The notes beneath the pieces are model-generated. The model saw only the letters and a program-made list of their open reading frames with translations, was not told the DNA's origin and did not search any database. This document shows, in pieces, positions 9,493-28,843 of a stretch of 64,000 bases of DNA. The position numbers were made by a program, and so were the translations under genes. Source of the stretch: Vreelandella zhuhanensis. Its GTDB lineage: Bacteria > Pseudomonadota > Gammaproteobacteria > Pseudomonadales > Halomonadaceae. Location: assembly GCF_009793355.1 (NCBI RefSeq), contig NZ_WTKP01000003.1:1-64000 (forward strand), in the 5' to 3' direction. How positions within the stretch are numbered: the stretch's first letter is position 1; every line of letters starts with the position of its first letter.

Positions 9493-10616
9493 GTATATTG
9501 ACCGAAAGCGAAATTTTAGAGCTAACGATAGAAAGAATGATCTTCCATGTGGTAGATCCTGAATCAGATGATCCCGTATTTTTAGCAGAAGTTAGTCCTC
9601 CTAAATGTGCAGAGTTTTTTATAGAAAGAATAAAAGAGACCTTAAGAGGAGCACAATATCTGTTCTTACCAGGAGCTGGTGTTCCTAGTTTACTTCGTCG
9701 AGCACTACCTGGTAGAAGCAATGTTGATGAGTTTGTGAAAGTATCCCATGAGCTTTCAGAAAGATTTAAGGAAAAGGTGAAGCAAGATAAAAGACTTGCT
9801 TCAGGTGTGTTAATGTTTTTTTTGGTTAAAACTACTAGTGATGAAAATTTAGTAGCGATAGTTAAGTATGAGCACCAGCAGGTGGTTTCCTATTCTTATG
9901 CTTTGGATAAAAACGGCGATGTTGCTTTAGATGGTGAAGGTAATCCCGTTCCAGATTTAGAGACGTTAATAGAGACTTTTACGCAAGATCGTAAAGCAAT
10001 GCAAAAATCTGCAGTTGTTCGATTTTCAAACATAAATGATGTGGGGCAAGAAGTTGAAAGAGATCGCGTTGTTGTAGTTGATCACTCATCTAGAAAATAT
10101 AGAGATGCTACACAACATTTTTCTAACTTTCTTGATATAAGACGTCTGCTAGAGCCCAAGGAGCTAACAAAGCGGCTAGAAGAAGCTACTGTTGAAACTA
10201 TTAAAGCTCACGTTGATGAAGTTCCTCCTGAAGTGGCAAAAGCCCCAAAAAGATTTGTTCGAGAAACTTTTTCTAGGCTAGATGGATTCGATTTTGAAAA
10301 ACCAGAAGAATTTATTGGTGCAATTATTCATGGTGTGAGTTCTGACTCACCAATCCTCAAAACTTTTGAAAAAAATACGAAAAAGCATGGGATTAGTACA
10401 GAGGCATTTGAGTTTTCAGGAGCGGTGCCTCCCCCGGCAGAGTATAGAAGGATAGTGACAAATGAGGGTGTTTCAATTCTGTTCTCTTCAAGTCATGAGG
10501 CTGATGGTAAAGTGAAAAAGCATCCTGAGGATAATGGGGGATTTACAATTACCGTAAAATCAACTGGATTATATCGCGATGATGAACTCGAAAAAATGCC
10601 TCGCATTCCTGATTGA
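9489..10616 (+). CDS. NA37/YejK-type nucleoid-associated protein
   Basis: This 375-residue protein has the organisation of the 37-kDa nucleoid-associated family (NdpA/YejK): N-terminal LTIERMIFHVVDPESDDPVF, ECFF-like segment CAEFFIERIKETLRGAQYLF, VSHELSERFKEKVKQDKRLA, the strand LVAIVKYEHQQVVSYSYALD, SRKYRDATQHFSNFLDIRRL, and a C-terminal GGFTITVKSTGLYRD strand like YejK's final domain. Housekeeping YejK binds nucleoid DNA; divergent copies occur in islands. It starts with GTG overlapping a short leader and ends 38 bases inside the next gene. Both are clearly more AT-rich than the flanking module, which suggests separate acquisition. A DNA-binding sensor role is inferred. Confidence 0.72.
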   Translation: MSILTESEILELTIERMIFHVVDPESDDPVFLAEVSPPKCAEFFIERIKETLRGAQYLFLPGAGVPSLLRRALPGRSNVDEFVKVSHELSERFKEKVKQDKRLASGVLMFFLVKTTSDENLVAIVKYEHQQVVSYSYALDKNGDVALDGEGNPVPDLETLIETFTQDRKAMQKSAVVRFSNINDVGQEVERDRVVVVDHSSRKYRDATQHFSNFLDIRRLLEPKELTKRLEEATVETIKAHVDEVPPEVAKAPKRFVRETFSRLDGFDFEKPEEFIGAIIHGVSSDSPILKTFEKNTKKHGISTEAFEFSGAVPPPAEYRRIVTNEGVSILFSSSHEADGKVKKHPEDNGGFTITVKSTGLYRDDELEKMPRIPD

Positions 10617-12012
10617 TAACATAGACTCAGGCAGCAATGTCAAAGAGACCCTAGAAGAGCTAAGTATTTTTATTGGCTCAAATTCTGTCTCTGTTGAAAG
10701 CATTAGAAATGCTTTGTCCGAGTTTGATAATAGTGAAAATTCAGAGTGGTCGATATACATTCGCGATGGGGAATATTCGGAAATTTCTCTAGAGGATATC
10801 GATGGGGAAGACTTAAATATATTAATAAAAAAGCCTGTAGGGGGAAGGTTGTTTTTTGCGACTGTAAATGGCTTTCTTTATGAGTTGGATAAAGAGGAGT
10901 TGTTATATGTAAAAGAGATCTTAGTGCTTCAAAATTTTTCTGCATTTTGTACACGTAGATACTGTATTAAACCTTGGGATGGTGAGTTGATACATAGCTT
11001 GCCTCGACAAGAGAATGGTTCTGACGAAGTAGATCCAAGAATAGGGCTAGTTCGTGATTTGACAGCTAAAAAAGTTCCCGCTGATCCATACCGTTGGCTT
11101 TTAACCGGCCCGAGTAGTGAGGGGAAATTGTGGTCTAAGTGGCAGAATATAGCCGTGCTGAAATTGTCTACAATTTTGGTTTCAGAGGTTTGGGCTGAAG
11201 ACGTTAAAACAAAAGTGTCAATTCATGGCTCACGTAAAATTATATTTAATCTTGAAGATTTTTTAGATGATCCTAGCTTTTACGGACAACTGAAAGAAGC
11301 TATTGAGTGGCTGCTAGTACGGCAAGATGCAGATGCAAGGCATGAGGTTTTGATACGACGTTTAGCTACACTTCTTTGGCAGGATGAAGATAATAACTCT
11401 AGTTGGATTGTAGCTGCTAAAAAAGTATTAAAGGAAGCTCTTGATGGGGCGCGTCTCGATCATAAAGCTTATATAAGGTATAAATCAACCGAGGCTGTTA
11501 AAGCTGTTGCTGATTTAAGAAAAGCTGTGGGTGAAGATATTTCTAAAATAACCTCTCGAGTCCATAGGTTAGCAAACGGTTTTATTGTAGGTTTAGCTGC
11601 TCTTGCCGCAGGGTTAGGTGTTCGCCTTACTTTGATAACATCAAATGGTAGCTGGGAGTGGTCTGGTTTAGTATTTTGTATAGTAGTTTTGAGTGTAACT
11701 TGGACTGGAATATTGCTTCAACGATATATAAGCTCAAGTTCACTTGTAAGTGACCTTTGTCACATGCGGAGCTGGCATAGGAGTGTGCATGTTGCTTTAA
11801 GCAGGGCTGAATATAAGGATCTTGCTTTACGACCAATTCTTGATGCAATCCAGCTTTACAAACGTACCATAAAGTTGATGCATATTGGGCTGGTGGTTTC
11901 TTCAATAATATTCTTTTTGGGGTTTATTGGTTTACCTGCCATTCATAGCGGAGACCAAGAAGATGCGAGCAGTCAACAACAGCGTTCTGAGTCTATAAAA
12001 AAAGAAGAGTAA
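10579..12012 (+). CDS. Three-TM membrane protein paired with NA37 (unrecognised family)
   Basis: A 477-residue protein without a recognised domain. Residues 1-330 look soluble and mixed alpha/beta. They are followed by two hydrophobic helices, ANGFIVGLAALAAGLGVRLT (about 332-351) and WSGLVFCIVVLSVTWTGILL (about 361-380). A soluble loop follows, then a third helix, IGLVVSSIIFFLGFIGLPAI (about 436-455), and a charged tail rich in Q, S and E. The start overlaps the NA37 gene by 38 bases in another frame, so expression is probably coupled. Two adjacent ATGs (10579, 10582) are possible. A large soluble domain plus terminal membrane helices, in a defence-gene neighbourhood, recalls membrane effectors of anti-phage systems; this is inference only. 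Confidence 0.8.
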   Translation: MMNSKKCLAFLIDNIDSGSNVKETLEELSIFIGSNSVSVESIRNALSEFDNSENSEWSIYIRDGEYSEISLEDIDGEDLNILIKKPVGGRLFFATVNGFLYELDKEELLYVKEILVLQNFSAFCTRRYCIKPWDGELIHSLPRQENGSDEVDPRIGLVRDLTAKKVPADPYRWLLTGPSSEGKLWSKWQNIAVLKLSTILVSEVWAEDVKTKVSIHGSRKIIFNLEDFLDDPSFYGQLKEAIEWLLVRQDADARHEVLIRRLATLLWQDEDNNSSWIVAAKKVLKEALDGARLDHKAYIRYKSTEAVKAVADLRKAVGEDISKITSRVHRLANGFIVGLAALAAGLGVRLTLITSNGSWEWSGLVFCIVVLSVTWTGILLQRYISSSSLVSDLCHMRSWHRSVHVALSRAEYKDLALRPILDAIQLYKRTIKLMHIGLVVSSIIFFLGFIGLPAIHSGDQEDASSQQQRSESIKKEE

Positions 12013-12070: not shown

Positions 12071-14710
12071 TTACAAAGCGTTATCAATCGCCACGCGCAC
12101 TTCCTTCGGATCACCCTTCTCAATAGTGGCCATTACAAAGACAGCCTTACCATCGGAAGCTTTTGCCCACTGCTGGCCAATGAGGTTTTTCTCACGTGAA
12201 TCGCGGTTTTCCTCGGGCGTTCGGTCTTTGCCTTTGTATTCCACGACAAGCAGTTGGTCATCGTCGAGCAGGGCGACAAAGTCTGGATAGAATTTGTCGG
12301 TGGAGGTTGGCAGCGAGAACGAATTTGGGTGCCTACTGACATTACGCGTCCAGTATTTTACCCTCGGGTGCGAATCGATCATGAAGGCACATTGTTCTTC
12401 CTCGCCATTGACCTTTTTGGAGTCAAAGACGGGCACATCGTCAGGCCCCATAAAGTGCTTTTTGAAGTGATAGCTTCCGCGATATTTCGGAATCCCCGCA
12501 TACATCTCATCGAAGAAGGTAAAGCCTTGGTCGAAGGAGACCTCAACATGGGCATCAGGCCCGAACAGGTTGGCTTGGTAGACTTTCTCGCGCTCCGCTT
12601 GGCGGAAGCCATGTATTTTTTCAGACAGCTTGCGAGCGAGAATAAATTTGCAGCGCATCAGCTGCGACAAGCTTAGCTCGCGGTCACGTGTTAGGTAGGT
12701 CACGACGTCACTTAGCCAAGCCAGTAATTCAGCTTGGCTCAGCCACGGAGTACGTATTTTGCGATCTAGCCATTGCACCAAGCTGGTTGGCGTCCAGTCG
12801 TCTACTTCGACGTTCATGATGAGCTGTTCAGCGGTATCGCCAGAGCCAATGGTGACGCGGTTGCCGTCCAAATCAATTTCAAATGTGTTTGTGGTATCCA
12901 CGATACTGAATTCGGACGCTTCCAAGCGAGCAGGGTGGTCAGCAAGCGACCACTCATGTTGCTCCATGAGAATATCAGGGTCACCAAATACCATCTCCCC
13001 CTGCACGTAGGCCATCAAGCGGGGCAGCGTGAAGGTTTCTCCCTTCTGTGATGGCGGTATGTCGTGCTGGTATTTAGTGTGGTGTTCGTTGATGCTTTGC
13101 TGAAGCTGCGGTTTAAGCGATTCAGGGGCATAGCTGATCAACGTGTCGGCTTCTTCGGGCTTGAGGAAGCCCTTTACTTCCACGTGGCTCTTGCCGCTCT
13201 CATCAAAAGTCACTTGCACCTTCGATGGCACCGCCGTGTTCATTTTGCTGGCTTCTTCCTGGCTAGCCTGAATGGCTACTTTCATCGTCGGGGTGGGCCG
13301 AGGCTGTCGTCCAAACAACCCATCATCAAGGCCGAGCTGTTCGGCTTCGATATTATCCTCTGCCTCGCTCTCTTCAAAGCCCATATCAATGAGCTTATCG
13401 CGTAGGCTGTGGGCGGCATCCATAAAGTGCTTTGAAACCAGCTTGGCGTAGGATTTATTCAGCGCTTTTTCTTTACGTTTTTGGGCGTAAGGCATGCGCA
13501 GTACGCGACCAAGAAGCTGCTCAGCATCGGTTGAGCTACGAATATTGGCCACCGAACAGAAAACATAGGCAAACGAGCAGTCCCAGCCTTCCTTGAGCGC
13601 TTCGATAGTAATGACGTACTCGATAAGACAATCAGGTTTGAATAGATTAATACCGTCTAATTCGCGTTGCGTCCCCGTTGCCACTGCGATTTTATTAGGA
13701 TCAATATTTTCGTTTTCAATCAGGTGCTGTTTCAGTACCCCTACGGTGACCTCTTCCCCTTTTTTTTGTGCCTGGAAGAGCACGATAGGACGAATATAAG
13801 CTTCGCGATCGCGTTCAGCGTGCTCTTGTAGCTCGGCTCGCTTCAAAATGGCCGAGTTAACCGCCCCTTGCCATGTCTCAGCTTCATCCAGAACCACGGG
13901 CATTTTGATCATCTCTTCATCTTTCAGCTCCTGGGCGGTCACTGAATGAAGCAGATTGTTAAACCCCTTAGGTGTGGCGGTGAATTCGATGAGCGCGGTC
14001 GGGTTAATCCGTTCGTAAACTTCTTGGCTGAGGTTGGAACCGGCCTTATGGGCTTCATCCATGATGACCAGCGGCTGGTGAAGGTGCATCAGGTTAGCGA
14101 AGCTAAATTTAATATTGCCCTTCTCAGTGCGCTCCAAATCTGGCGTTTGAGGAGAAACCGCTGAGAAATGTGGTTCCATATCCTCGTTATGCGCATAGAC
14201 TTTGCGCCCATCGGTATTGCTAACGCGCAGTGTTTGAATGGTACCTACAACCACGCAGAGATTGGAGCGAAGGTCATGCGGCTTGATGTGGGTAAAATCG
14301 CCAATATCAAAAATTCGCACGCGTCCATCGAACGCTTCATCCAAAGCTTTTCGGTAGGGATGGCGAGGGTTTTTAAGGGCCTCGGCTGTTTGCATACGAA
14401 TGGTGTTGGTGGGTACTAGCCATAGAACCAAGGGGAAGTCTTTTTCTACCCAAGAGTCTTTGGCCACTGCAATTGAGTGAGCGGCGAGAATCGTCTTACC
14501 GCCGCCGGTGGGTAGGCGTAGGCAAACATAAGGCGTATCTGGTAGCGTTTTGATCGGCGTGTATTTAGCAGGATAACCCCGAAGCCGAGTGGCTATTTCA
14601 GGCTTTTCGGTAATTTTTTTGTATGCCTCTTGCGGGCCAATCACCCGCGCCTCTTCCAAGTAGGTTTTTAGCGTATCGAGCGAGGCGTGTTGGTAATCCT
14701 TTAACTTCAT
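12071..14710 (-). CDS. res: Type III restriction endonuclease, Res subunit
   Basis: This 879-residue superfamily-2 translocase/nuclease has Walker A LPTGGGKTILAA (about 66-77), the Walker B box IMDEAHK, motif III EFTATPKG, and motif VI region AEQLLGRVLRMPY. The C-terminal PD-(D/E)XK nuclease reads YPDFVALL…LLVVEYKGK. It cuts unmodified DNA after ATP-driven communication between two inversely oriented sites, in complex with Mod. Its ATG overlaps the Mod stop in an ATGA, so the two are translationally coupled on the minus strand. It converges on the membrane-protein gene with 58 bases between stops. All motifs are intact and the length is normal, so it is presumably active. Confidence 0.92.
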   Translation of the reverse strand: MKLKDYQHASLDTLKTYLEEARVIGPQEAYKKITEKPEIATRLRGYPAKYTPIKTLPDTPYVCLRLPTGGGKTILAAHSIAVAKDSWVEKDFPLVLWLVPTNTIRMQTAEALKNPRHPYRKALDEAFDGRVRIFDIGDFTHIKPHDLRSNLCVVVGTIQTLRVSNTDGRKVYAHNEDMEPHFSAVSPQTPDLERTEKGNIKFSFANLMHLHQPLVIMDEAHKAGSNLSQEVYERINPTALIEFTATPKGFNNLLHSVTAQELKDEEMIKMPVVLDEAETWQGAVNSAILKRAELQEHAERDREAYIRPIVLFQAQKKGEEVTVGVLKQHLIENENIDPNKIAVATGTQRELDGINLFKPDCLIEYVITIEALKEGWDCSFAYVFCSVANIRSSTDAEQLLGRVLRMPYAQKRKEKALNKSYAKLVSKHFMDAAHSLRDKLIDMGFEESEAEDNIEAEQLGLDDGLFGRQPRPTPTMKVAIQASQEEASKMNTAVPSKVQVTFDESGKSHVEVKGFLKPEEADTLISYAPESLKPQLQQSINEHHTKYQHDIPPSQKGETFTLPRLMAYVQGEMVFGDPDILMEQHEWSLADHPARLEASEFSIVDTTNTFEIDLDGNRVTIGSGDTAEQLIMNVEVDDWTPTSLVQWLDRKIRTPWLSQAELLAWLSDVVTYLTRDRELSLSQLMRCKFILARKLSEKIHGFRQAEREKVYQANLFGPDAHVEVSFDQGFTFFDEMYAGIPKYRGSYHFKKHFMGPDDVPVFDSKKVNGEEEQCAFMIDSHPRVKYWTRNVSRHPNSFSLPTSTDKFYPDFVALLDDDQLLVVEYKGKDRTPEENRDSREKNLIGQQWAKASDGKAVFVMATIEKGDPKEVRVAIDNAL

Positions 14711-16239
14711 GTGCGTGCCTTAACATCGTAAGGAGTTTGCTTAAACTCGATCTGCTCAGCGTTGAGCGTTGCCTCTGATAGCATGGTGCGCTCGCCATAA
14801 ATGGTCATGGGGCCTTTAAAATCGCCTTGTGCAGCGCGAATTACGGCTAGTGTCTTGCGAGTAAGCACGTTGCCATTAGAAGCTGCTTTATCACCTAAAA
14901 TACCGTTGTATAGGAGAGCATGACCATGGCCGTTATGGCTTCCGAGGAAAGGTGTCTGGTCATTCGACTTTCCCCATGATGTACCCGTCTCGGTAAACCA
15001 AATATGCGCTGCCAGCACCGGGAATTTGATGTCGGGCTGAATTTGCCCATCTTCCGTAAACACGGGCGGGCCAAGCCGGTAAAAACGGAAGCCACCGCCG
15101 CCTTGCCAGTTGTGAGCCTCCGATATCCCGCCTTGTTCACCATCAACAACTTGCTTGAGCCTGGGAACGCAGTGTGTGACTGCGTGCTCGCCCATTTCAA
15201 TGCCGATATATCGACGGTTCATTTTGTGAGCGACGGCAGCTGTAGTGCCTGAACCGAGGAAGCTATCGAGAACGAGGTCGCCAGGATTGGTGGCTATTTG
15301 GAGAATGCGTTCGATCAAGCGCTCGGGCTTGGGAGTACCAAATGTGTCATCGTACCCAAAAAGAGCTTGGTTCTCTTTTTTACCTTCTTGGGAATGGCCG
15401 ACGTCCGTATGAGGCCACCACGTCCAAGGAACCATGCCTTGCATTTCAGCTACAAACCTTTTAACCGCAGGTGCCCCGTCGCCTTTGGGGCCAAAGTACA
15501 TCCTTTTGTCGGCTAAAAATTGCTCATACCCTGCTTTAGTGACTCGCCAACACCGTCCTCCTGGGGGTGTAACTACGCGTCCAGAAGGAAGAGTAATTTC
15601 ATACATCTGATTAGGGCGGTAACCAGGTGCTGTAAAGTCTCTAGCCTTCCAGGGGCCTCGTTGGTCTTTGTCTGGGTTTTTGAACTGTTTGGTTTGAGCT
15701 TCACTAAGCGGAATGAGATTTCGCGTTTCTTTAAATGTACGGGGCTCCATCGCATAGCAGAGCACGTACTCATGGGCATCACTGATGGCAACACGGGAGT
15801 CTGGTGCATATCGTTTCTGCCAGACGTTGGTAGTCACAAATTTTCGTCTACCAAATACTTCGTCGCAGATGATTTTTAAATAGGCATGCTCGTCTTCGTC
15901 AATACTGATCCAGATTGACCCATCCTCTGCTAGCAGATCGCGCAGTAGCTCCAAGCGGGGCCACATCATAGCTAGCCATTTGGAATGCTCTAAATTGTCG
16001 TCGTAGTGTTCGAAGGCAGAGCCGGTGTTGTAGGGTGGATCGATATAAATGCACTTAACCTGACCAGCGTAATAGGGCAAAAGTGCCTTGAGGGCGTCGA
16101 GGTTATCGCCCTGGATGAGCATATTCCCGGAATTCTGGTCACCATAGCCAAGCTCGGTAGCTTCTTCCATCAAGCGATAGGGCACCTTTTCAGCGGCGCG
16201 TACGTCTTCGTCTCGGGTCAACCATCGCAGTATGGGCAT
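14707..16239 (-). CDS. mod: Type III DNA methyltransferase, Mod subunit
   Basis: This 510-residue beta-class amino-methyltransferase has motif IV DPPYNTGSAFEHYDDN near residue 70 and motif I DSFLGSGTTAAVAHKMNRRY near residue 305, the circularly permuted order of beta-class enzymes. The intervening 130-290 region is the target-recognition domain. It methylates adenine in an asymmetric site and gives Res its specificity; the site cannot be read from sequence. Start MPILRWLTRDEDVR has AAGGA about 12 bases upstream, rather distant. No simple-sequence repeat lies inside the gene, so I see no sign of phase variation. Confidence 0.92.
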   Translation of the reverse strand: MPILRWLTRDEDVRAAEKVPYRLMEEATELGYGDQNSGNMLIQGDNLDALKALLPYYAGQVKCIYIDPPYNTGSAFEHYDDNLEHSKWLAMMWPRLELLRDLLAEDGSIWISIDEDEHAYLKIICDEVFGRRKFVTTNVWQKRYAPDSRVAISDAHEYVLCYAMEPRTFKETRNLIPLSEAQTKQFKNPDKDQRGPWKARDFTAPGYRPNQMYEITLPSGRVVTPPGGRCWRVTKAGYEQFLADKRMYFGPKGDGAPAVKRFVAEMQGMVPWTWWPHTDVGHSQEGKKENQALFGYDDTFGTPKPERLIERILQIATNPGDLVLDSFLGSGTTAAVAHKMNRRYIGIEMGEHAVTHCVPRLKQVVDGEQGGISEAHNWQGGGGFRFYRLGPPVFTEDGQIQPDIKFPVLAAHIWFTETGTSWGKSNDQTPFLGSHNGHGHALLYNGILGDKAASNGNVLTRKTLAVIRAAQGDFKGPMTIYGERTMLSEATLNAEQIEFKQTPYDVKART

Positions 16240-16445: not shown

Positions 16446-16730
16446 CTAATGTGCGGCAAGCTCGTTGAAAAAAGTGGGATTATCCTGAATCGTCGCCAGT
16501 ACCTTAGCGGCTAACCCCGTAGGGTTACGGCGCTTGGTTTCCCAGCTTTTGATGGTGTCCACACTGGTACCCATGGCGCGGGCAAATTCCGCCTGAGAAA
16601 CATAAAGCTTGGCGCGAATGGCTTTTACATCGGCCACTTCATGGCGTGTGATGCGGCTAGCCTCTGTGTTGCCCTGTTTAATCTCAACGGCTTCTTGCAG
16701 CGATGTTTGGAGTTCGTCAAAGATGCTCAT
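16446..16730 (-). CDS. NadS/HigA-like helix-turn-helix antitoxin
   Basis: This 94-residue protein ends in an XRE-type HTH: VKAIRAKLYVSQAEFARAMG, then TSVDTIKSWETKRRNPTGLA, followed by AAKVLATIQDNPTFFNELAA. It resembles NadS antitoxins of HigBA-like modules, encoded downstream of the toxin and autoregulating the operon. The ATG overlaps the end of the toxin frame by four bases (ATGA). The adjacent toxin is broken, so this may now be an orphan repressor. It lies on the minus strand between Mod and the tRNA scar. Confidence 0.8.
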   Translation of the reverse strand: MSIFDELQTSLQEAVEIKQGNTEASRITRHEVADVKAIRAKLYVSQAEFARAMGTSVDTIKSWETKRRNPTGLAAKVLATIQDNPTFFNELAAH

Positions 16731-19903: not shown

Positions 19904-20179
19904 CTCAGTCAGCCATCAGGCCGTTTCGGATGCTTCATACCGGTGTACTGAAAGGGTATGCCCATGCAGGCACAGCGATCTACGAACTGGCCAAAAATTG
20001 CGGGCTCCCTTTCCATCAACATCTACCTTGTTTTTGAAAAGTTCATAATATGGTGCTCTCCCTAGCCTGAGGGCTGCTCATTTATCGCTAGGCTGCTAAA
20101 GTTCAGGTATTAGAAAAGTAATCAAAAGGGCCTGGCCTCCCTTAACGACTACCAAAAAACATACTAAGTGGAGCGCATT

Positions 20180-23100
20180 GTGCAAGGCAGCGATAACACA
20201 TCAGTAAATTTCGGTTTCCTGGCCGAGCATGACGCGCTTTTCGTACAGTTGGCATCGGCTGCGGAGGGAGCCTTCTCCAGCGATCCCAACACCACGTTAA
20301 TCAAGCTACGCCAGCTCGGAGAGGCGCTTGCCCAGCATCTGGCGGCGTCGTCAGGGATTGATTTCGATGACCAAACCAGTCAGTCCGATCTGCTCTATCG
20401 CCTGAATCGAGAAGTCCGCCTGGAGCCACAGGTAAAAGAGCTTTTCCATACCCTGCGCATTGAGGGCAACAAGGCAACCCACCAGTTCCGCACTCGTCAT
20501 AAAGAAGCCATGGACGGCCTGAGGCTGGCCCGTGAACTGGCCATCTGGTTTCACCGCTCCTTTGGCAACGCTGGCGCTGGATTCAAACCGGGTCCGTTCG
20601 TGCCACCGCAAGACCCCAGTGCCCAGCTACGCCAGTTGCAAGTCGACATCGAAAAGCTTCGCCATGACCTGAGGCACGCCAGCATGGAGCTGGACAGCAG
20701 TCAGCAACTTAGCCAGCTCGTTGAACAGGAAAAGACCGAGTACGAAGCCCTCGCTCTGGCTATGGAAGAAGAATCCCGAGCCAAAACGCTGGAGGCAACC
20801 GCCCACGAACAGGCACTTGTACAGCAAAAGCAGGATTACGAGCAGAAGATCAAGGCACTCCAGCAACAACTGATGGAACAGGGTGAGAAGCCAGTCTCCG
20901 CTCAACGCCAGGAAGTGGCTCAGAAGACAAAGGCGGCTAGCCAGCAGATTATTTTGAGTGAAGAACTCACTCGTATCCTGATCGACCAGCAACTGGTTGA
21001 GGCGGGCTGGGACGCCGACAGTCAGGAAATTACTTACCAGAAAGGCGCCAGGCCAGAGAAAGGCACTTACCGTGCCATTGCCGAATGGCCCACTAACCAT
21101 AACGGCAATAAAGGCCGGGCAGACTATGTACTGTTTGCAGGTCTTGCGCCCATTGCAGTGGTGGAGGCCAAGAAAGAAAACACCAACGTGGCGGGTAAAA
21201 TTCATCAGGCCGAACGTTACAGCAAAGGCTTCAAGGTAGACGCACCCCTAGTCGGTACCTGGGAGCTGGCGGGCCGCACCATCGCCTGGCCAGCCGACGA
21301 TGAAGGTCACTATATGGTGCCTTTTGTCTATTCCTGCAACGGTCGGCCCTATGTTCCCCAGCTGGCCGAACAATCGGGTACCTGGTTTCGTGATGCGCGT
21401 GATCCCAGTAACACCCGGCGCGCACTGTCACGATTTCACACCCCCGCGGGGCTGCTGGATCTACTGGAACGCGATAAAGAAAATGCCGAAAAGCTGCTCA
21501 AAAACGAACCCTTCGGTTACCTGAAACTGCGCGACTATCAACAGAAGGCCATCACGGCGACCGAAAATGCCCTGTCCCGAAACGTCCGCTCCGTACTGCT
21601 TGCCATGGCCACAGGCACCGGCAAAACCCGTACCATCATTGGCCTGATGTACCGCTTCCTGAAAACCGAACGTTACCATCGAATTCTATTCTTGGTAGAT
21701 CGCACAGCACTCGGTCAGCAGGCTATCGATGCCTTTAACGAAGCACCTCTGGAGCAGAACCAAACCTTAAGCAAGATTTACAACGTGGCGGAACTGGGCG
21801 ATATGGCCGCCGAGATGGAAACTCGCGTTCAGGTGGCCACCGTTCAGGCCATGGTCAAACGTATCTTTATGAGCGATCAGCCGCCGCCCATTGACCAGTT
21901 TGATTGCATTATCATTGACGAAGCCCACCGGGGTTACACCCTGGACCAGGAAATGACCGAAGGCGAGCTGGCGACCCGCGATGCCAGCCAATATATCTCC
22001 AGCTACCGCCGAGTGTTGGATTACTTCGATGCGGTAAAAATCGGCCTCACTGCCACACCGGCCAAACACACCAGCGAGATCTTCGGCAAACCCGTTTACA
22101 CCTATTCCTACAGGGAGGCCGTCGCAGACGATTGGCTGATCGACCACGAACCGCCTATTCGTTACGAAACTCTGCTGACCAAGAACGGCATCCAGTTCGA
22201 GAAGGGCAACCCGGTGGAAGTAATCAACACTCGGACCGGCGAAGTGGACACTACCGAGCTTGAAGACGAGCTGAGTTTTGAAGTTGAGTCCTTCAACCGT
22301 CGGGTGATCAACGAAAACTTCAACCGGGTTATCTGCGAGGAACTTGCCCAGGAGATTGACCCCTTTGGCGACGAAAAAACCCTCATATTCTGCGCCACCG
22401 ACCTGCATGCCGATATGGTCAAGCGGCTGCTGGATGATGCCTTCAAAGACCTCTATAACGGCAGCTACAATGAAGCCGCTGTGGCCAAGATTACCGGCAA
22501 AAGCGACAAAGTCGATCAGCTGATCCGTCGCTACAAAAACGAGCGTTATCCCAGTATTGCCGTCACTGTTGACCTACTGACTACCGGCATCGATGTACCC
22601 AAGATCTGCCACTTGGTATTCATGCGCCGGATACGCTCGCGCATTTTGTACGAGCAGATGATTGGCCGCGCCACACGGCGCTGCGATGAGATCGGCAAAA
22701 CCGTATTCCGTATTTACGATCCGGTCGATATCTACGCCGCGCTTGCCGAGGTCAATACCATGAAGCCCCTGGTGAGGGACCCCAATATCACCTTGGAGCA
22801 ACTGGTCGACGAACTGACCGACGAGGGCCATTTAGAAGCGGCGCTGAACAGCCCGGGCGAACAACTGGGCGAAAGCCAGGCTGATGTAGTGCTTAGCCAG
22901 CTCAGCCAGAAGGTAATGCGCGTACTGCGCAAGGCCGACAACAAAGCCGAAAGCCGACCGGCGCTGAAAGACAAGCTGGACGAACTGCACGAGCTGTGGG
23001 GAGTCGAGCCGAAAACCCTGCACCAGCACCTGCATAAACTTGGCCCTCGTGAAGCGTCGGCATTCATCCGCCAGCACAGTGGCCTGGTCAATCAGCTTAG

Positions 23101-23707
23101 CCAAGTAAAATCCCTGGTAGGCAGCGACCAAATGCCCGTGATTTCGCATCATGAAGACGAACTCATTCAGGAACCCACCCAAAGCTATGGCGTGCACCAA
23201 CGGCCAGAAGACTATCTGGACAGCTTCAATGCGTTTATCAAAGAGCAGATTAATCAATCGACCGCCTTGGCAGTGGTCGTCAACAAGCCCCGCGACCTTA
23301 CCCGCCAGCAACTTAAGGAAGTGAAAGTACTGCTGGATAACCACGGCTACTCGGAAGCCAACCTGCAAAGCGCCGTGCGCAACCAGACCAATAAAAACAT
23401 TGCCGCCAGCATCGTCGGCCATATCCGCCGCGCCGCGCTGGGCGAGCCTCTAAAGCCCTTTGAGCAGCGTGTGGCCGAAGCCATGGACCGCATCTATATC
23501 CAGCACAATTGGACATCGGCCCAGCGCAAGTGGCTAGACCGCCTGGCCAAGCAGCTTACCCATGAAGTCATCATCGATCGTGAAACGGTCAATCAGCTAC
23601 CTGCATTTCAGGGCGGTGCTAAGCAGCTGAATAAAATTCTCGGGGATGAATTGGATACCGTACTGGAAGATCTTGGCGAGGCCATGTGGCCACAGCAAAG
23701 TGCATAG
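20180..23707 (+). CDS. hsdR: Type I restriction endonuclease subunit R (HsdR)
   Basis: An HsdR of about 1175 residues. An N-terminal DUF4145-like helical domain (LIKLRQLGEALAQHLA, RIEGNKATHQ) is followed by a coiled coil rich in Q/E (about 155-245). The nuclease comes next (RADYVLFAGLAPIAVVEAKK, with D and ExK near 328), then the SF2 motor: Walker A MATGTGKTRT near 475, IIIDEAHRGYTLD near 577, GLTATPAKHT, and MIGRATRRCD. The C-terminal half is of the EcoEI R_C type. It translocates and cuts DNA with HsdM and HsdS. GTG at 20180 has GGAG six bases upstream; an in-frame GTG at 20168 lacks a site. The stop lies inside the first operator-like repeat upstream of fic. Confidence 0.92.
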   Translation: MQGSDNTSVNFGFLAEHDALFVQLASAAEGAFSSDPNTTLIKLRQLGEALAQHLAASSGIDFDDQTSQSDLLYRLNREVRLEPQVKELFHTLRIEGNKATHQFRTRHKEAMDGLRLARELAIWFHRSFGNAGAGFKPGPFVPPQDPSAQLRQLQVDIEKLRHDLRHASMELDSSQQLSQLVEQEKTEYEALALAMEEESRAKTLEATAHEQALVQQKQDYEQKIKALQQQLMEQGEKPVSAQRQEVAQKTKAASQQIILSEELTRILIDQQLVEAGWDADSQEITYQKGARPEKGTYRAIAEWPTNHNGNKGRADYVLFAGLAPIAVVEAKKENTNVAGKIHQAERYSKGFKVDAPLVGTWELAGRTIAWPADDEGHYMVPFVYSCNGRPYVPQLAEQSGTWFRDARDPSNTRRALSRFHTPAGLLDLLERDKENAEKLLKNEPFGYLKLRDYQQKAITATENALSRNVRSVLLAMATGTGKTRTIIGLMYRFLKTERYHRILFLVDRTALGQQAIDAFNEAPLEQNQTLSKIYNVAELGDMAAEMETRVQVATVQAMVKRIFMSDQPPPIDQFDCIIIDEAHRGYTLDQEMTEGELATRDASQYISSYRRVLDYFDAVKIGLTATPAKHTSEIFGKPVYTYSYREAVADDWLIDHEPPIRYETLLTKNGIQFEKGNPVEVINTRTGEVDTTELEDELSFEVESFNRRVINENFNRVICEELAQEIDPFGDEKTLIFCATDLHADMVKRLLDDAFKDLYNGSYNEAAVAKITGKSDKVDQLIRRYKNERYPSIAVTVDLLTTGIDVPKICHLVFMRRIRSRILYEQMIGRATRRCDEIGKTVFRIYDPVDIYAALAEVNTMKPLVRDPNITLEQLVDELTDEGHLEAALNSPGEQLGESQADVVLSQLSQKVMRVLRKADNKAESRPALKDKLDELHELWGVEPKTLHQHLHKLGPREASAFIRQHSGLVNQLSQVKSLVGSDQMPVISHHEDELIQEPTQSYGVHQRPEDYLDSFNAFIKEQINQSTALAVVVNKPRDLTRQQLKEVKVLLDNHGYSEANLQSAVRNQTNKNIAASIVGHIRRAALGEPLKPFEQRVAEAMDRIYIQHNWTSAQRKWLDRLAKQLTHEVIIDRETVNQLPAFQGGAKQLNKILGDELDTVLEDLGEAMWPQQSA

Positions 23708-23729
23708 ATTTTTCGATTTTCTGAACATT
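23701..23729. promoter_or_regulatory. Operator-like element, copy 1
   Basis: A 29-base sequence starting TGCATAGATTTTTCG and ending GAACATT, 24/29 identical to the element at 23784-23812. It overlaps the hsdR stop codon. It is less symmetrical than copy 2 and is probably the weaker site. Confidence 0.5.
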
Positions 23730-23738
23730 TGGGCCCTT

Positions 23739-23772
23739 ATATGCAAAGAAAAGTGCCGTTTCCTTTGCATAT
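23739..23772. promoter_or_regulatory. 10-bp inverted repeat between hsdR and fic
   Basis: ATATGCAAAG (23739-23748) and CTTTGCATAT (23763-23772) are exact complements with a 14-base spacer. It sits between the two copies of the operator-like element. It could be a protein site or an RNA hairpin; no T-run follows. Confidence 0.5.
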
Positions 23773-23783
23773 CCGCCCAGACA

Positions 23784-23812
23784 TGTATAGATTTTTGGTT
23801 TTTCTATACATT
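23784..23812. promoter_or_regulatory. Operator-like palindrome, copy 2, before fic
   Basis: TGTATAG (23784-23790) and CTATACA (23804-23810) are perfect complements around a 13-base AT-rich spacer. It ends 20 bases before the fic start. The near-repeat at 23701-23729 makes a pair 83 bases (about eight helical turns) apart, suggesting cooperative binding by an autoregulator such as the winged-helix end of Fic. Confidence 0.55.
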
Positions 23813-23832
23813 AAATGAGAAAGGGACGTTCC

Positions 23833-24903
23833 GTGCCGCCAACTCTGCCCCTTGAAGCCCTCGAACAGTGGGAAACCCGAACCGTGCTTAAGAAGGCAGC
23901 GGAGGCACACCGCTATCTAGCCGAACTCAAAGGTGTCGCGGCGACCATCCCCAACGAAGAAATTCTGATCAACACACTAACGTTGCAGGAAGCCCGGCAC
24001 AGCTCCGAAATTGAAAACATCATCACCACCCAGGATGATCTTTACCGCGCCGTTGTCGCGGATGAAGCCAGCGTTTCACCGCAAACCAAGGAAGTTCAGG
24101 ACTACGCCACGGCACTACGAGCCGGGTTCCGCAGTGTTCGACAGTCCCGACTGATTCGTCTGAACGATATCCTGCTCATTCAGGAAACCCTTGAAAAAAA
24201 TAACGCCGGCTTCAGGAAGCTACCGGGCACCGCATTGAAGAACCAGGCCACGGGGGAGGTCGTCTATGAGCCGCCTCAGTCAGCTCAGGAAATCGAAGCG
24301 TTGATGAGCAATCTGGTCGACTACATCAACGATGACGAACGGTGCGATGCCGACCCGCTGGTAAAAATGGCCATCATCCACCATCAGTTCGAGAGCATTC
24401 ACCCGTTCTATGACGGCAACGGCCGAACCGGGCGCATCATCAATATGCTTTACCTGGTCGCCAAGGACCTGCTCGACTTGCCCGTGCTGTATCTCAGCCG
24501 TTACCTGATTCAAACCAAAGCCGGCTACTACCGAGAACTACAGGCTGTGCGTGATACCGGTAACTGGGAGCCGTGGCTGCTTTATATGCTTGAGGGTATC
24601 AGCCAGACCGCCCGACAAACTATTGACCTGATTGGCCAGATCCGGGAACTGATGCAGCACACCAAACACCGTATGCGTGATGAGTGCCCGAAGATCTACC
24701 GGCAGGAACTGCTGAACAACCTGTTCAACCATCCCTATACGAAAATCGAATTCGTCATGGAGGATCTGGCCGTCAGCCGCATCACCGCGACCAAGTATCT
24801 CGATGAACTGGTCAATATCGGCCTGCTGGACAAAACCAAAGTCGGCCGCAGCAACTTCTACATCAACACACCGCTGATGGTGCTCTTCCTTGAGCGCGCA
24901 TAA
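23833..24903 (+). CDS. Fic-family AMPylase-like protein (SoFic-type) in type I locus
   Basis: This 356-residue protein has the Fic core HPFYDGNGRTGR near residue 195, preceded by HHQFESI. The N-terminal inhibitory helix carries SSEIEN, the class II (S/T)xxxE(G/N) motif that blocks ATP until relieved. C-terminal residues (VMEDLAVSRITATKYLDELV) form a winged helix. Layout and sequence resemble Shewanella SoFic, reported as an anti-phage Fic. It transfers AMP to protein targets, here unknown. GTG 23833 has AAAGGGA six bases upstream; ATG 23815 is the alternative start and lacks a site. It lies 18 bases before hsdM, so it is probably cotranscribed. Confidence 0.88.
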   Translation: MPPTLPLEALEQWETRTVLKKAAEAHRYLAELKGVAATIPNEEILINTLTLQEARHSSEIENIITTQDDLYRAVVADEASVSPQTKEVQDYATALRAGFRSVRQSRLIRLNDILLIQETLEKNNAGFRKLPGTALKNQATGEVVYEPPQSAQEIEALMSNLVDYINDDERCDADPLVKMAIIHHQFESIHPFYDGNGRTGRIINMLYLVAKDLLDLPVLYLSRYLIQTKAGYYRELQAVRDTGNWEPWLLYMLEGISQTARQTIDLIGQIRELMQHTKHRMRDECPKIYRQELLNNLFNHPYTKIEFVMEDLAVSRITATKYLDELVNIGLLDKTKVGRSNFYINTPLMVLFLERA

Positions 24904-24921
24904 AACAACCCGGAACTAACC

Positions 24922-26553
24922 ATGACCAATAACGACATCGTCCAGAAGCTCTGGAATCTTTGTGATGTGCTGCGAGATGACGGCATCAATTACTCGGACT
25001 ACGTCACCGAGCTAGTGCTGCTGCTGTTTATTAAAATGGTGCACGAAAATACCCAAGCTGAATCACTGAAGCGTCACGTGCTACCCAAAGGTTGCCGCTG
25101 GACCGACTTGAATGGCAAATCGGGCATCAATCTGCTTGATGACTACAAACGCATTCTGCTCAGCCTTTCCAGCGGCCGGGATGGTGCGGGTAGATTGGTT
25201 CATGACGACCCCTTGATCAGCGCCGTTTATGCTGATGCGCAAACCCGCCTGCGCGAGCCGCGCCACCTGGAGCAGATGATCAAAACGCTGGATCAGATCG
25301 ACTGGTTTAGTGCCCAGAAGGACGGTCTAGGGGATCTTTACGAAGGTCTGCTTGAAAAGAACGCTAATGAAACCAAGTCTGGCGCAGGCCAGTACTTCAC
25401 GCCCCGGGCGTTGATCAACACCATGGTGCGCTGCCTGAAACCCCAGCCTGGCGAGACAATTCAAGATCCGGCTGCGGGAACAGCGGGCTTTCTAATTGCC
25501 GCCGATCAATACATCAAGGATCAAACCGACGACCTGTTTGACCTGAACGCCCAGCAGCAGGCTTTTCAGAAAAATCATGCCTTTGTCGGTATCGAACTGG
25601 TGCCCGGCACCCGCCGTCTGGCGCTGATGAACTGTCTGCTGCACGGCATGGAAGGCGACGATGAAGGCGTGGTTCACCTAGGCAACGCCCTGGGCCAGAC
25701 TGGCGCCAGCCTGCCCAAAGCCGACGTCATTCTCGCCAATCCGCCCTTTGGCACCAGCAAAGGCGGTGATGCCAGCGTCACCCGCGACGACTTGACGTAT
25801 AAAACCAGCAACAAACAGCTGGCCTTTTTGCAGCACATCTACCGCAACCTGAAGCCCGGTGGCCGTGCAGCGGTGGTGTTACCGGATAACGTGCTGTTCG
25901 AAGCTGGCGTAGGCACCGATGTACGCCGGGACTTAATGAACAAGTGCAACCTGCATACACTCCTGCGTTTGCCCACCGGTATCTTCTACGCCCAGGGTGT
26001 GAAAACCAATGTGCTGTTCTTCACCAAGGGCAGCGCAGTGGACAAGTATCAGGAAGAGAACTGCACCGAAAATGTCTGGGTTTTTGATCTGCGCACCAAC
26101 ATGCCCAGCTTTGGCAAGCGCACGCCGTTTGGTGAGCCACATCTGAAGCCATTCGAGAAAGTTTTTGGAGATGATCCCAACGGTCTGAGTGTGCGACAGG
26201 AAGGTGAATACAGCTTCCATTCCGACAAGGTCGAGCTGCCGGAAGAAGCGGAAGAAAACCAGGGTATCGATCCCCGTTTGGCCCACAGTCGCTGGCGCAG
26301 CTTCAGCCGCCAGTGGATTGCTGAACACAAGGGCGACTCGCTGGATATTTCCTGGCTGAAGGACAGCGACAGCGTGGACGCTGCCAATCTGCCGGAGCCG
26401 AGTGTATTGGCGGGTGAGGCGATGGGGGAGCTGGTGCAGGCGTTGGGGGAACTGGATGCGCTGATGCGGGAATTGGGGGCTGAGGAAGAAGCTGATGGGG
26501 CTCGGGCTCTCGTTGGCGAATCCTTTGGGTTCAAGGACATAGTCAAGTTATGA
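24922..26553 (+). CDS. hsdM: Type I DNA methyltransferase subunit M (HsdM)
   Basis: This 543-residue N6-adenine methyltransferase has an N-terminal helical HsdM domain (VQKLWNLCDVLRDDGINYSD), SAM-binding motif I DPAAGTAGFLIAADQYIK, catalytic NPPF in ADVILANPPFGTSK, and GQYFTPRALINTMV ahead of motif I. It forms the M2S methylase, and the R2M2S nuclease with HsdR. The last four bases overlap hsdS (ATGA). It has a C-terminal acidic region (MGELVQALGELDALMRELGA) that probably contacts HsdS. Confidence 0.93.
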   Translation: MTNNDIVQKLWNLCDVLRDDGINYSDYVTELVLLLFIKMVHENTQAESLKRHVLPKGCRWTDLNGKSGINLLDDYKRILLSLSSGRDGAGRLVHDDPLISAVYADAQTRLREPRHLEQMIKTLDQIDWFSAQKDGLGDLYEGLLEKNANETKSGAGQYFTPRALINTMVRCLKPQPGETIQDPAAGTAGFLIAADQYIKDQTDDLFDLNAQQQAFQKNHAFVGIELVPGTRRLALMNCLLHGMEGDDEGVVHLGNALGQTGASLPKADVILANPPFGTSKGGDASVTRDDLTYKTSNKQLAFLQHIYRNLKPGGRAAVVLPDNVLFEAGVGTDVRRDLMNKCNLHTLLRLPTGIFYAQGVKTNVLFFTKGSAVDKYQEENCTENVWVFDLRTNMPSFGKRTPFGEPHLKPFEKVFGDDPNGLSVRQEGEYSFHSDKVELPEEAEENQGIDPRLAHSRWRSFSRQWIAEHKGDSLDISWLKDSDSVDAANLPEPSVLAGEAMGELVQALGELDALMRELGAEEEADGARALVGESFGFKDIVKL

Positions 26554-27917
26554 GTATAGAAAAGCCCACAATGTGGTTACAAACCAGTATCGGCAGCCTG
26601 TGTAACTTGATAAACGGAAGAGCATTCAAGCCCAAGGAATGGAGCGAGGCAGGGCTTCCGATTATCAGAATTCAGAACCTGAACAACCCAGACGCAAAGT
26701 ATAACCACTTTGACGGAGAGCTGGCAGACAAACAAAGGATTGAAACTGGTGACTTACTTTTTGCCTGGTCTGGAACCCCCGGAACATCTTTCGGTGCCCA
26801 TGTTTGGAAGGGAGAGACTGCTGCTCTCAACCAGCACATCTTCAAGATTGAATTTTCTGAGGCTCTGATTGACAAACGTTTTTTGCGATATGCAATAAAC
26901 CAAACATTGGACGAACTCATTTCCGGTGCGCATGGCGGGGTAGGGCTTCGTCACATAACCAAAGGTAAGTTTGAAGCCACCGAGATTGCATTCCCGTCTC
27001 TGACTGAACAGAAAGTCATCGCCGACAAACTCGACACCCTGCTGGCACAGGTGGAAAACACCAAAGCCCGCCTCGAACGCATCCCGAAAATTCTCAAGCG
27101 CTTCCGCCAGTCCGTGCTGGCTGCGGCGGTGAGTGGGCGATTGACGGAGGAGTGGCGAAGGGACTCTACCTACAACGGAGAAGGATATCCGGCTTCTTGG
27201 ACGTTTAAACATCTTTCCGAAGTAGGTCAGCTCGCTAGGGGCAAGTCTAAACATCGCCCTAGGAACGATCCCAGGCTATTCGGCGCTGATTACCCATTCA
27301 TTCAAACTGGCGAAGTTGCGAATGCCGCTGGCGAAATAACTTCCGCTACCCGGTTCTATAGTGAATTTGGCCTTCAACAGAGTCGTCTCTTTCCTGCCGG
27401 TACTCTGTGCATAACTATCGCGGCCAATATCGCCGATACTGCCATTCTTGGAATCGATGCCTGCTTTCCGGATAGCGTTGTTGGTTTCACGCCAAAGGAT
27501 TCGGAAGCACTTGCCTATTTTGTTAAATATTTGATCGATGTAAACAAACAGGATCTTGAATCTTTTGCCCCTGCCACGGCGCAGAAGAACATTAACTTAA
27601 AGGTTCTGAACGAGCTTCGCTTGCCATTCCCATCTTTGGAAGAACAAACCGAAATCGTCCGCCGAGTAGACCAACTCTTCGCCCACGCTGACCGCATCGA
27701 ACACCAAGTCAACAACGCCCTGACGCGCGTCAATAACCTCGCCCAGTCCGTCCTGGCCAAGGCGTTCCGGGGCGAACTCACAGAACAGTGGCGCAAGGAC
27801 AACCCCGAGCTGATCAGCGGGGAGAACAGTGCCGAGGCGTTGTTGGAGAGAATCAAGGCGGAGCGGGCGGCTGTGACGCCGATGAAGAAAACCCGCAAGC
27901 GCAAGGTCACTGCATGA
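26550..27917 (+). CDS. hsdS: Type I specificity subunit S (HsdS)
   Basis: This 455-residue protein has two target-recognition domains (about 5-150 and 215-375), each followed by a conserved helix: SLTEQKVIADKLDTLLAQVE … RFRQSVLAAAVSGRLTEEWR, and LEEQTEIVRRVDQLFAHADR … LAQSVLAKAFRGELTEQWR. It decides the bipartite recognition site. The TRD DNA differs in composition from the flanking conserved helices, as is usual from TRD exchange. Complete; no inverted or silent hsdS copy was seen nearby. The stop overlaps the next gene by four bases. Confidence 0.92.
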   Translation: MSIEKPTMWLQTSIGSLCNLINGRAFKPKEWSEAGLPIIRIQNLNNPDAKYNHFDGELADKQRIETGDLLFAWSGTPGTSFGAHVWKGETAALNQHIFKIEFSEALIDKRFLRYAINQTLDELISGAHGGVGLRHITKGKFEATEIAFPSLTEQKVIADKLDTLLAQVENTKARLERIPKILKRFRQSVLAAAVSGRLTEEWRRDSTYNGEGYPASWTFKHLSEVGQLARGKSKHRPRNDPRLFGADYPFIQTGEVANAAGEITSATRFYSEFGLQQSRLFPAGTLCITIAANIADTAILGIDACFPDSVVGFTPKDSEALAYFVKYLIDVNKQDLESFAPATAQKNINLKVLNELRLPFPSLEEQTEIVRRVDQLFAHADRIEHQVNNALTRVNNLAQSVLAKAFRGELTEQWRKDNPELISGENSAEALLERIKAERAAVTPMKKTRKRKVTA

Positions 27918-28843
27918 GCGATATCAAGTTGTTTCAACTTACCGGTACCAGTGCTACCGAACTGAGCGGTAAAAGCGCACAGCTGGAAAAGGATCTTCAA
28001 AACCATATTGAAGCGAATATGGACGCCCTGATCGGTGTGCGTTTTTTGGCCGGTGAATACAGTACCGGCAAAACGCATAAGGGCCGTATCGATTCCTTGG
28101 GGCTGGACGAGAACGGCTGCCCGGTGATTGTGGAATATAAGCGTCACAGCAACGAAAATGTCATCAACCAAGGTCTGTTTTATCTGGACTGGCTGCAGGA
28201 CCACCAGGCCGAATTCAAATGGCTGGTGATGGAGAAAATCGGTAAAACCGAGGCCAAAGATATCGAATGGAGCGGCACCCGCTTGATCTGTATTGCCTCA
28301 GATTTCAATAAATATGACGAGCACGCCGTTCAGCAGATCAACCGCAACATTGAGCTGATGCGTTATCGTTATTTCGGCGATGAGCTGCTGCTACTGGAAC
28401 TGGTAAACGCACAGACCGCCAACCAGACCGCACCCGTCGCTGGTGCGTCACTATCGCCCAAAAAACCGGCTAAAAGCATCAGCAAAGACAAAAGCCAGCA
28501 GGAACGCCTGGTTGAAGCACCGCCCACGCTGGTTGAGCTGTACCAAACCGTCTGCCATTACGTTGAGCAGCTAGGTGATGAAGTTCAGCGCAAAGAACTC
28601 AAGCTCTACACCGCATTCAAAAGCATTCGTAACTTCGTATCCATTGTGGTGCTATCAGGAAAAGATCCGCGCTTGCAGATGTACCTGAAACTGCCCGGTG
28701 CGCTCGGCGAAGAAACGGCATTCAGCCGTGACGTCACCAGCATCGGCCACTGGGGAACCGGAAACCTTGAGGTGAATATCCGCACGGCAGGAGACTGGGA
28801 GAAGGCGCGAAAGTTGGTGGACCAAGCGTATCAGGAAAGTTGA
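27914..28843 (+). CDS. DUF5655 protein with PD-(D/E)XK-like N-terminal domain
   Basis: This 309-residue protein begins MSDIKLFQLTGTSATELSGK. Residues about 25-150 resemble an endonuclease-like fold with GRIDSLGLDENG, then VIVEYKRHSNENVINQGLFY (Asp plus ExK pair). Residues about 200-305 match the DUF5655 pattern (LKLYTAFKSIRNFVSIVVLS … WGTGNLEVNI). Such proteins recur next to type I systems. It overlaps hsdS by ATGA, so it belongs to the locus. A role as accessory nuclease or regulator is inferred; no experiment is known to me. A longer in-frame start at 27788 lies inside hsdS and is rejected. Confidence 0.8.
   Translation: MSDIKLFQLTGTSATELSGKSAQLEKDLQNHIEANMDALIGVRFLAGEYSTGKTHKGRIDSLGLDENGCPVIVEYKRHSNENVINQGLFYLDWLQDHQAEFKWLVMEKIGKTEAKDIEWSGTRLICIASDFNKYDEHAVQQINRNIELMRYRYFGDELLLLELVNAQTANQTAPVAGASLSPKKPAKSISKDKSQQERLVEAPPTLVELYQTVCHYVEQLGDEVQRKELKLYTAFKSIRNFVSIVVLSGKDPRLQMYLKLPGALGEETAFSRDVTSIGHWGTGNLEVNIRTAGDWEKARKLVDQAYQES

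Follow-up and report, generated by a model that had tools for sequence, protein, structure and literature searches.

A predicted three-site operator array ahead of a SoFic-family fic gene in a type I restriction-modification locus of Vreelandella zhuhanensis

Organization of the hsd-fic locus

The window, that is, the whole 64,000-nucleotide stretch of DNA analysed here, contains a type I restriction-modification (RM) locus in which a fic gene lies between hsdR and hsdM. The relevant features are as follows (positions in the window; palindromic sites carry no strand).

20168-23707, plus strand: hsdR, EcoEI-like type I restriction subunit, upstream of the array
23700-23728: P1, operator-like, GTGCATAGA-N11-TCTGAACAT, degenerate and the weakest site, overlapping the end of hsdR and its stop codon (23705-23707)
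23739-23772: P2, putative operator, ATATGCAAAG...CTTTGCATAT, a perfect 10-bp inverted repeat for which relatives have palindromic variants at the equivalent position
23783-23811: P3, putative operator, ATGTATAGA-N11-TCTATACAT, perfect, the site closest to fic
23816-23826, plus strand: Shine-Dalgarno-like TGAGAAAGGGA before the GTG start, recognized by eye
23833-24903, plus strand: fic, SoFic family, probable GTG start at 23833 rather than ATG at 23815
24778-24804, plus strand: RITATKYLD, codons 322-330 of the open reading frame (ORF) counted from 23815, start of helix 3 of the winged helix-turn-helix (wHTH), the putative recognition helix
24922-26553, plus strand: hsdM, type I methylase, starting 18 bp past fic
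26550-27917, plus strand: hsdS, specificity subunit, overlapping hsdM by 4 bp
27788-28843, plus strand: DUF5655/NucS-like ORF, PADLOC candidate PDC-S18, with a provisional start, which may close the operon

The GTG at 23833 is common to all seven close relatives listed, none of which has an ATG at the position of 23815 (L041 has TTG there). The fic product matches PF13784, PF02661 and PF21248 (Fic_N, Fic and SoFic-like_C) above the curated Pfam cut-offs and the PADLOC SoFic profile at 9.7e-121, and carries an intact FIC motif, HPFYDGNGRTGR, and the class II inhibitory motif SSEIEN. Its predicted structure (mean pLDDT 84.6) superimposes on SoFic 3eqx with Z 40.5 and rmsd 2.7 over 350 aligned residues at 41% identity. 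The C-terminal part of the model has the order helix-strand-helix-helix-strand-strand of a winged helix, with the third helix at residues 316-328 of the 356-residue model, corresponding to residues 322-334 of the 23815 ORF. Judging from its sequence, the fic product is a SoFic-family protein and a putative AMPylation toxin. None of the 50 fold-comparison entries listed is, by its title, a SoFic-DNA complex; the SoFic entries 9tb0, 9tc4, 9tch and 9tcl fall outside these 50.

A small HTH-only controller gene has no room in the gaps of the cluster (125 bp between hsdR and fic, 18 bp between fic and hsdM, and an overlap between hsdM and hsdS). The nearest HTH_3 gene (16446-16730, minus strand) is located about 3.4 kb upstream of hsdR. 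It adjoins, together with a 96-residue ORF, a type III-like methyltransferase gene (14707-16239, minus strand; PADLOC MTase_III), and the three are possibly a second defence cluster.

The sequence-only reading of this region had reported a 29-base element present twice, 83 bases apart. Both copies were recovered (23701-23729 and 23784-23812; 83-bp offset, 83% identity), with the downstream copy an exact match to TGTATAGA-N11-TCTATACA and the upstream copy off at three of the 16 defined bases. At up to three mismatches, this pattern has no third site in the 64-kb window, and two such sites appeared in none of 100 dinucleotide shuffles. The 10-bp inverted repeat that had been placed between the two copies is present and perfect (10 of 10 bp; its 9-bp core occurs in 0 of 100 shuffles), but rather than being an accessory to a pair, it appears to be an operator site of its own, P2, in an array of three. 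The centres of P1, P2 and P3 (23714, 23755.5 and 23797) are evenly phased in steps of 41.5 bp, and P2/P3 is the sole pair in the window of palindromes matching at 8 or more of 9 positions at an offset of 40-43 bp, with none in 20 shuffles. The 3.25-Mb genome contains two more places matching the pattern at three mismatches, which are meaningless because the reversed control pattern matches more often (6).

The left arm of P1 doubles as the C-terminus of hsdR (Ser-Ala-stop), so that selection on P1 itself is uncertain. The middle site of relatives, for example TGCATAGAAAA...TTTTCTTTGCA in L042, bridges the forms of P2 and P3, and the three sites were therefore taken as one operator family. Thus, from comparison of the sites, P1-P3 is a single predicted three-site operator array, and the region, as previously suggested, looks like a control region that separates hsdR from fic-hsdM-hsdS. 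A scan of the array with the sigma-70 promoter consensus produced no match.

Conservation of the array and covariation with the putative recognition helix of Fic

Relatives were collected through a protein scan, which yielded 80 named loci, and from related genomes, 105 of 196 of which have a Fic relative, with 30 loci fetched. Loci with less than 150 nt upstream were excluded; removal of duplicates reduced the other 104 to 94 distinct ones. These 94 upstream regions contain 108 palindromes of any sequence matching at 8 or more of 9 positions, compared to 7.9 expected from shuffles. Such palindromes are enriched in the 39 hsd-linked loci (59 vs 2.8 expected; at least one in 35 of 39) and in the 55 loci without an hsd match within the 1.5 to 5 kb, sometimes less, scanned on each side (49 vs 5.1 expected; at least one in 31 of 55). 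Because the array also precedes fic without hsd nearby, it travels with fic and not with hsd alone. Conservation of the palindrome upstream of homologous fic genes, to which the sequence-only reading had looked, is accordingly seen in many relatives, with hsd near or not.

Where the helix is of the R[ILMV] type, 68 of 77 distinct loci carry the operator at up to four mismatches. Successive operators in the R[ILMV] loci are spaced by 40-42 bp in 58 of 75 cases and by 80-83 bp in 8 of 75 (63 and 13 of 89, respectively, with duplicate loci kept). In a survey of hsdM relatives (30 loci, 24 scored, the six with hsdM less than 70% identical being dropped), all eight hsd loci with SoFic-A, the present one included, have P3 at no more than one mismatch, and none of the three with SoFic-B or Fic-C has a TGTATAG site at up to four mismatches. 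A different RM arrangement is found on an Azotobacter plasmid (L302), where a fic gene with TGTATAG-type palindromes is flanked by a DNA methyltransferase gene on one side and an hsdS-like gene on the other.

Covariation between operator and protein was analysed on loci with about 200 nt upstream (193, reduced to 168 distinct ones), 111 of which have a palindrome matching at 8 of 8 positions. In the comparison of Fic proteins, matches that stopped early or were shorter than 300 residues were dropped. In 57 of the 168, no 8/8 palindrome was found, and several distant Fic proteins have no visible array, which speaks against Fic autorepression. For a motif-free comparison, pairwise distances between operator arms were correlated with distances in nine-residue windows of Fic, moved in steps of three and corrected for divergence of the part preceding the wHTH. 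Of 118 windows, with a median of 0.002, the best was 322-330 (0.22); 325-333 and 319-327 came next at 0.20 each, and then the windows starting at 256 and 253 at 0.16, which are not part of the wHTH and count against Fic as the reader. For residues 320-328, the partial correlation was 0.23, or 0.24 after correction for the rest of the wHTH, a value matched in none of 2000 permutations (largest 0.17), which model the phylogeny only partly. The effect size is modest. The suggestion that the array is read by the winged-helix end of Fic gains from these comparisons, which point to helix 3.

With arm motifs that were picked for each helix class after inspecting the sequences, TGTATAR arms were found in 46 of 54 RI loci (1.81 per locus vs 0.06 in shuffles) and 17 of 21 RL loci (2.52 vs 0.06). 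The other classes have distinct arms, namely TGTAAAG for RP (1.50 vs 0.05), TGTCGA for RQ (2.88 vs 0.08), TGCACAA for RN (1.50 vs 0.08), CGGAAGA for DK (1.67 vs 0) and TGATAGA for WQ (3.00 vs 0). Of six loci with [ST]RKTA helices, which come from two distant Fic lineages, five have GGGTAAA or GCGTAAA arms. In one lineage, L094 (Moraxella), L097 (Psychrobacter) and L221 combine TRKTA helices with these arms, and their [ST]RITATK relatives, 72-81% identical outside the wHTH, have TGTATAG arms. In the other, L285 and L290, from genomes sampled starting with a Saprospiraceae MAG, combine SRKTA with the same arms; they are 52-54% identical to the first three outside the wHTH and, among the non-K proteins, nearest to I/L-helix relatives. 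The recurrence of this helix-arm pairing in both lineages is apparently due to convergence. Lysine at position 323 is not sufficient, as L107 (TRKTAA) and all seven ERKAA loci lack GGGTAAA-type arms by motif.

As a hold-out, 13 plasmid or phage loci were scored with the class motifs fixed beforehand. The class predicted from the helix was matched in 6 of 13 (L298, L299, L301, L302, L308 and L309) vs 0.75 expected from shuffles, with L298 and L308 matching a second class too; L300 and L310 matched the wrong class only, and 5 of 13 matched none. The fixed RQ motif failed in all four of its loci, of which L305 and L306 show, by eye, TGTTAA arms resembling those of L089, the other SRQ-type protein.

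Arrays without fic and the reader of the operators

The main difficulty for Fic as the reader is posed by the arrays in loci that lack fic. In the hsdM survey, 6 of the 13 hsd loci without fic carry the array, with a TGTATAG palindrome at up to three mismatches located before hsdM in five (L141, L147, L152, L154 and L161) and before an AbiL-like pair in the sixth (L153, of which L199 is a longer version); the remaining seven have no array within the stretches scanned. L141, L152 and L161 are closely related by eye and therefore count about once. Across 390 genomes, the exact pattern occurs at 26 places in 23 genomes, compared to at least three genomes with the reversed control pattern among those listed; 14 of these places are near fic, four in hsd loci without fic, one beside an hsdR remnant, and seven elsewhere. 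Perfect P2 palindromes persist in the fic-less L121 and L199, which looks like selection, and perfect palindromes in some fic-less loci may leave room for another reader.

Such a reader would be a host-encoded or other trans-acting regulator that controls hsd along with other defence genes, Fic being one target among several. The fic-less hsd arrays and the perfect P2 variants of L121 and L199 favour this explanation, as does the occurrence of arrays or lone sites ahead of AbiD-like, AbiL-like and AbiEii-like genes. We nevertheless consider it quite unlikely. In five fic-less relatives (G059, G012, G034, G011 and G016), matches at up to two mismatches are confined to hsd, which leaves no wider regulon of this sort, although G319 and G127 have a second place. 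The operators track Fic over distant hosts and shift with helix 3 even in close relatives, and the three surveyed loci in which this hsd backbone holds SoFic-B or Fic-C lack TGTATAG at up to four mismatches. The search for stand-alone SoFic-like_C domains, the only regulator family covered, also argues against it: of the ten genomes tested for PF21248, all chosen for a fic-less array, nine (G059, G012, G034, G011, G016, G439, G368, G422 and G260) have no match, and the tenth, G394, has one elsewhere in the genome, so that this family was rejected as the source of a stand-alone wHTH regulator of the fic-less loci. The nine genomes that have a fic-less array and no SoFic-like_C match also count against Fic as the reader. 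LexA or another global regulator was rejected as well, the sites being few and the spacing of the array palindromes different from that of LexA sites; one match, in L124, is upstream of an apparent recA (recognized by eye) and was set aside.

A rather more probable explanation, which we favour for the fic-less arrays, is that most of them are relics of a Fic that once occupied the slot between hsdR and hsdM, its gene having since disappeared or given way to AbiL, AbiD or another fic. In L205, a TGTCGA array and SoFic-B come immediately after a TGTATAG array; in L088 (3100-3260), intact P2 and P3 are joined to a fic gene from which roughly the first 113 codons are missing; and decayed arrays are found in L154 (3 and 5 mismatches) and L147 (2 and 3). 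Arms of the opposite class also exceed shuffles, with TGTCGA at 0.33 vs 0.03 per locus in RI loci and TGTATAR at 0.29 vs 0.06 in RQ loci. The perfect palindromes kept by several fic-less loci, L141, L152 and L161 among them, speak against relics. The relic explanation complements autorepression by Fic rather than opposing it. As for the alternative that the palindromes act in the RNA between hsdR and fic, as a transcription terminator or other structure, their position just past the hsdR stop codon and their T-rich spacers would suit this, yet it is highly improbable given the fixed phasing of about 41 bp, the long loops of 11 bp, the presence of arrays where fic is not behind hsdR, the covariation with the DNA-binding helix, and a terminator scan of the array that found nothing.

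The hsdR-hsdM slot of this type I family is occupied, by PADLOC, by SoFic-A, SoFic-B, Fic-C, AbiLi/AbiLii or AbiD-like modules (seen in L187, L188, L193, L195-L199, L189 and L205). A conserved stretch, AACACACCCGCCAAGCCTATG...GCGGGTTTTTTTATG, lies upstream of the AbiD-like gene (L187, about 10000-10140; L188; L200) and persists in L202, in which no AbiD-like gene separates hsdR from hsdM. This stretch looks like a structured RNA; an Rfam search with eight sources, including the stretch before the AbiD-like gene, produced no match at the gathering score, and a known RNA element was rejected. AbiL-like modules (L189, L192 and L199) have their own palindrome, AATCAACGAAATTTCGTTGATT, immediately 5' of the ATPase gene (AbiLi-like start). 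In L186, two TGTATAG operators about 41 bp apart lie upstream of the gene at 10339-10896, minus strand (corresponding to L118, about 1500-1570), preceding a 186-residue protein and an AbiEii-like nucleotidyltransferase close to a SoFic-B gene.

Predicted autorepression by Fic and comparison with known systems

We consider it likely that the three sites are operators of Fic itself, through which the toxin would autorepress fic-hsdM-hsdS apart from hsdR. The C-terminal winged helix of Fic would bind the ATGTATAGA-N11-TCTATACAT palindromes as a dimer, one per palindrome, with about four helical turns from one dimer to the next. Occupancy of P2 and P3, and more weakly of P1, would cover the putative fic promoter and repress fic, hsdM and hsdS, presumably a single operon, in a negative autoregulatory loop, with hsdR transcribed separately upstream, outside the control of the array. 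In a newly entered cell that contains no Fic, the operon would start out unrepressed and be expressed in a burst that ends as Fic builds up; the methylase could then lead in such a naive cell, as the sequence-only reading had proposed. The layout allows this methylase-first order because hsdR is outside the operon that the array would control. More speculatively, and in our estimate improbable, SoFic proteins might be fast-diversifying toxin-repressors with matched helix-operator pairs, so that one module can replace another in the hsd slot, with no repression across modules, and operator fossils stay behind; docking on the operator would also keep the toxin inactive, and a phage that degrades or takes over the host DNA, for instance, would free and arm it by ending the bound state.

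In type II RM systems, small HTH-only C proteins encoded in the cluster control the RM genes through paired operators. The present Fic is likewise an HTH protein encoded in the cluster, but it is an enzyme toxin and not HTH-only. We know of no operator-based self-repression of PrrC, a toxin that, like the present fic, is linked to an hsd locus. PrrC is reported to be silenced by the linked type I RM enzyme (PMC2610378), a different arrangement. A likeness to the array is seen in the RptR system (NAR 2025), in which three repeated operators at one promoter precede a type I RM operon (PMC12255303). However, RptR is a dedicated 9-kDa repressor that recognizes TAGCTA direct repeats (PMC12255303), whereas here the toxin would be the repressor and the palindromes are wide; TAGCTA is absent from 23600-23832, and the first gene past the array is fic, not rptR.

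The anti-phage toxins SoFic and EcSofic (PDB 3eqx, 3zcn, 3zec) belong to the same family as the present Fic, and PADLOC includes SoFic among known and candidate anti-phage genes. EcSofic is a dimer whose toxicity requires the C-terminal domain and whose wild type was hard to clone; the Results of that paper treat this domain without DNA (PMC12249575). A 47-residue antitoxin, AS1, is encoded downstream of EcSofic (PMC12249575), and the present fic instead has hsdM 18 bp downstream. According to a 2023 paper, DNA binding by SoFic had not been demonstrated (PMC10628234).

A precedent for autorepression is CccR of Yersinia pseudotuberculosis (Nat Commun 2022), which resembles the present Fic in being a Fic toxin with a C-terminal HTH and palindromes upstream of its own gene. 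CccR represses its own promoter via inverted repeats near -35/-10, which requires the dimer and the HTH (PMC9755527). A Fic-HTH dimer can therefore repress its own promoter. The CccR footprint is one 46-bp site, AGATAATCAT-N26-ATGATAATCT, whereas the 29-bp palindromes with 11-bp spacers described here repeat about every 41 bp; CccR is, moreover, a T6SS effector with 29% identity at 45% coverage to SoFic (PMC9755527). Fic autorepression as such is thus already known, with another operator. What appears to be new are the multi-site arrays and the apparent helix-operator code in the SoFic defence family, inside a type I RM operon; a literature search through titles and the openings of abstracts, which covered few subscription papers, found no paper on SoFic operators.

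The C-terminal domain of SoFic, for which the portions of the literature covered describe only an effect on toxicity, gains a candidate DNA target, and the natural table of helices and operators may amount to a recognition code. Autorepression would help to explain how natural hosts tolerate a toxin that, under a leaky promoter, is difficult to clone. More broadly, these observations suggest that a toxin sitting in the operon of a type I restriction locus can run that locus, and that relic operators record the defence modules that formerly occupied the slot between hsdR and hsdM.
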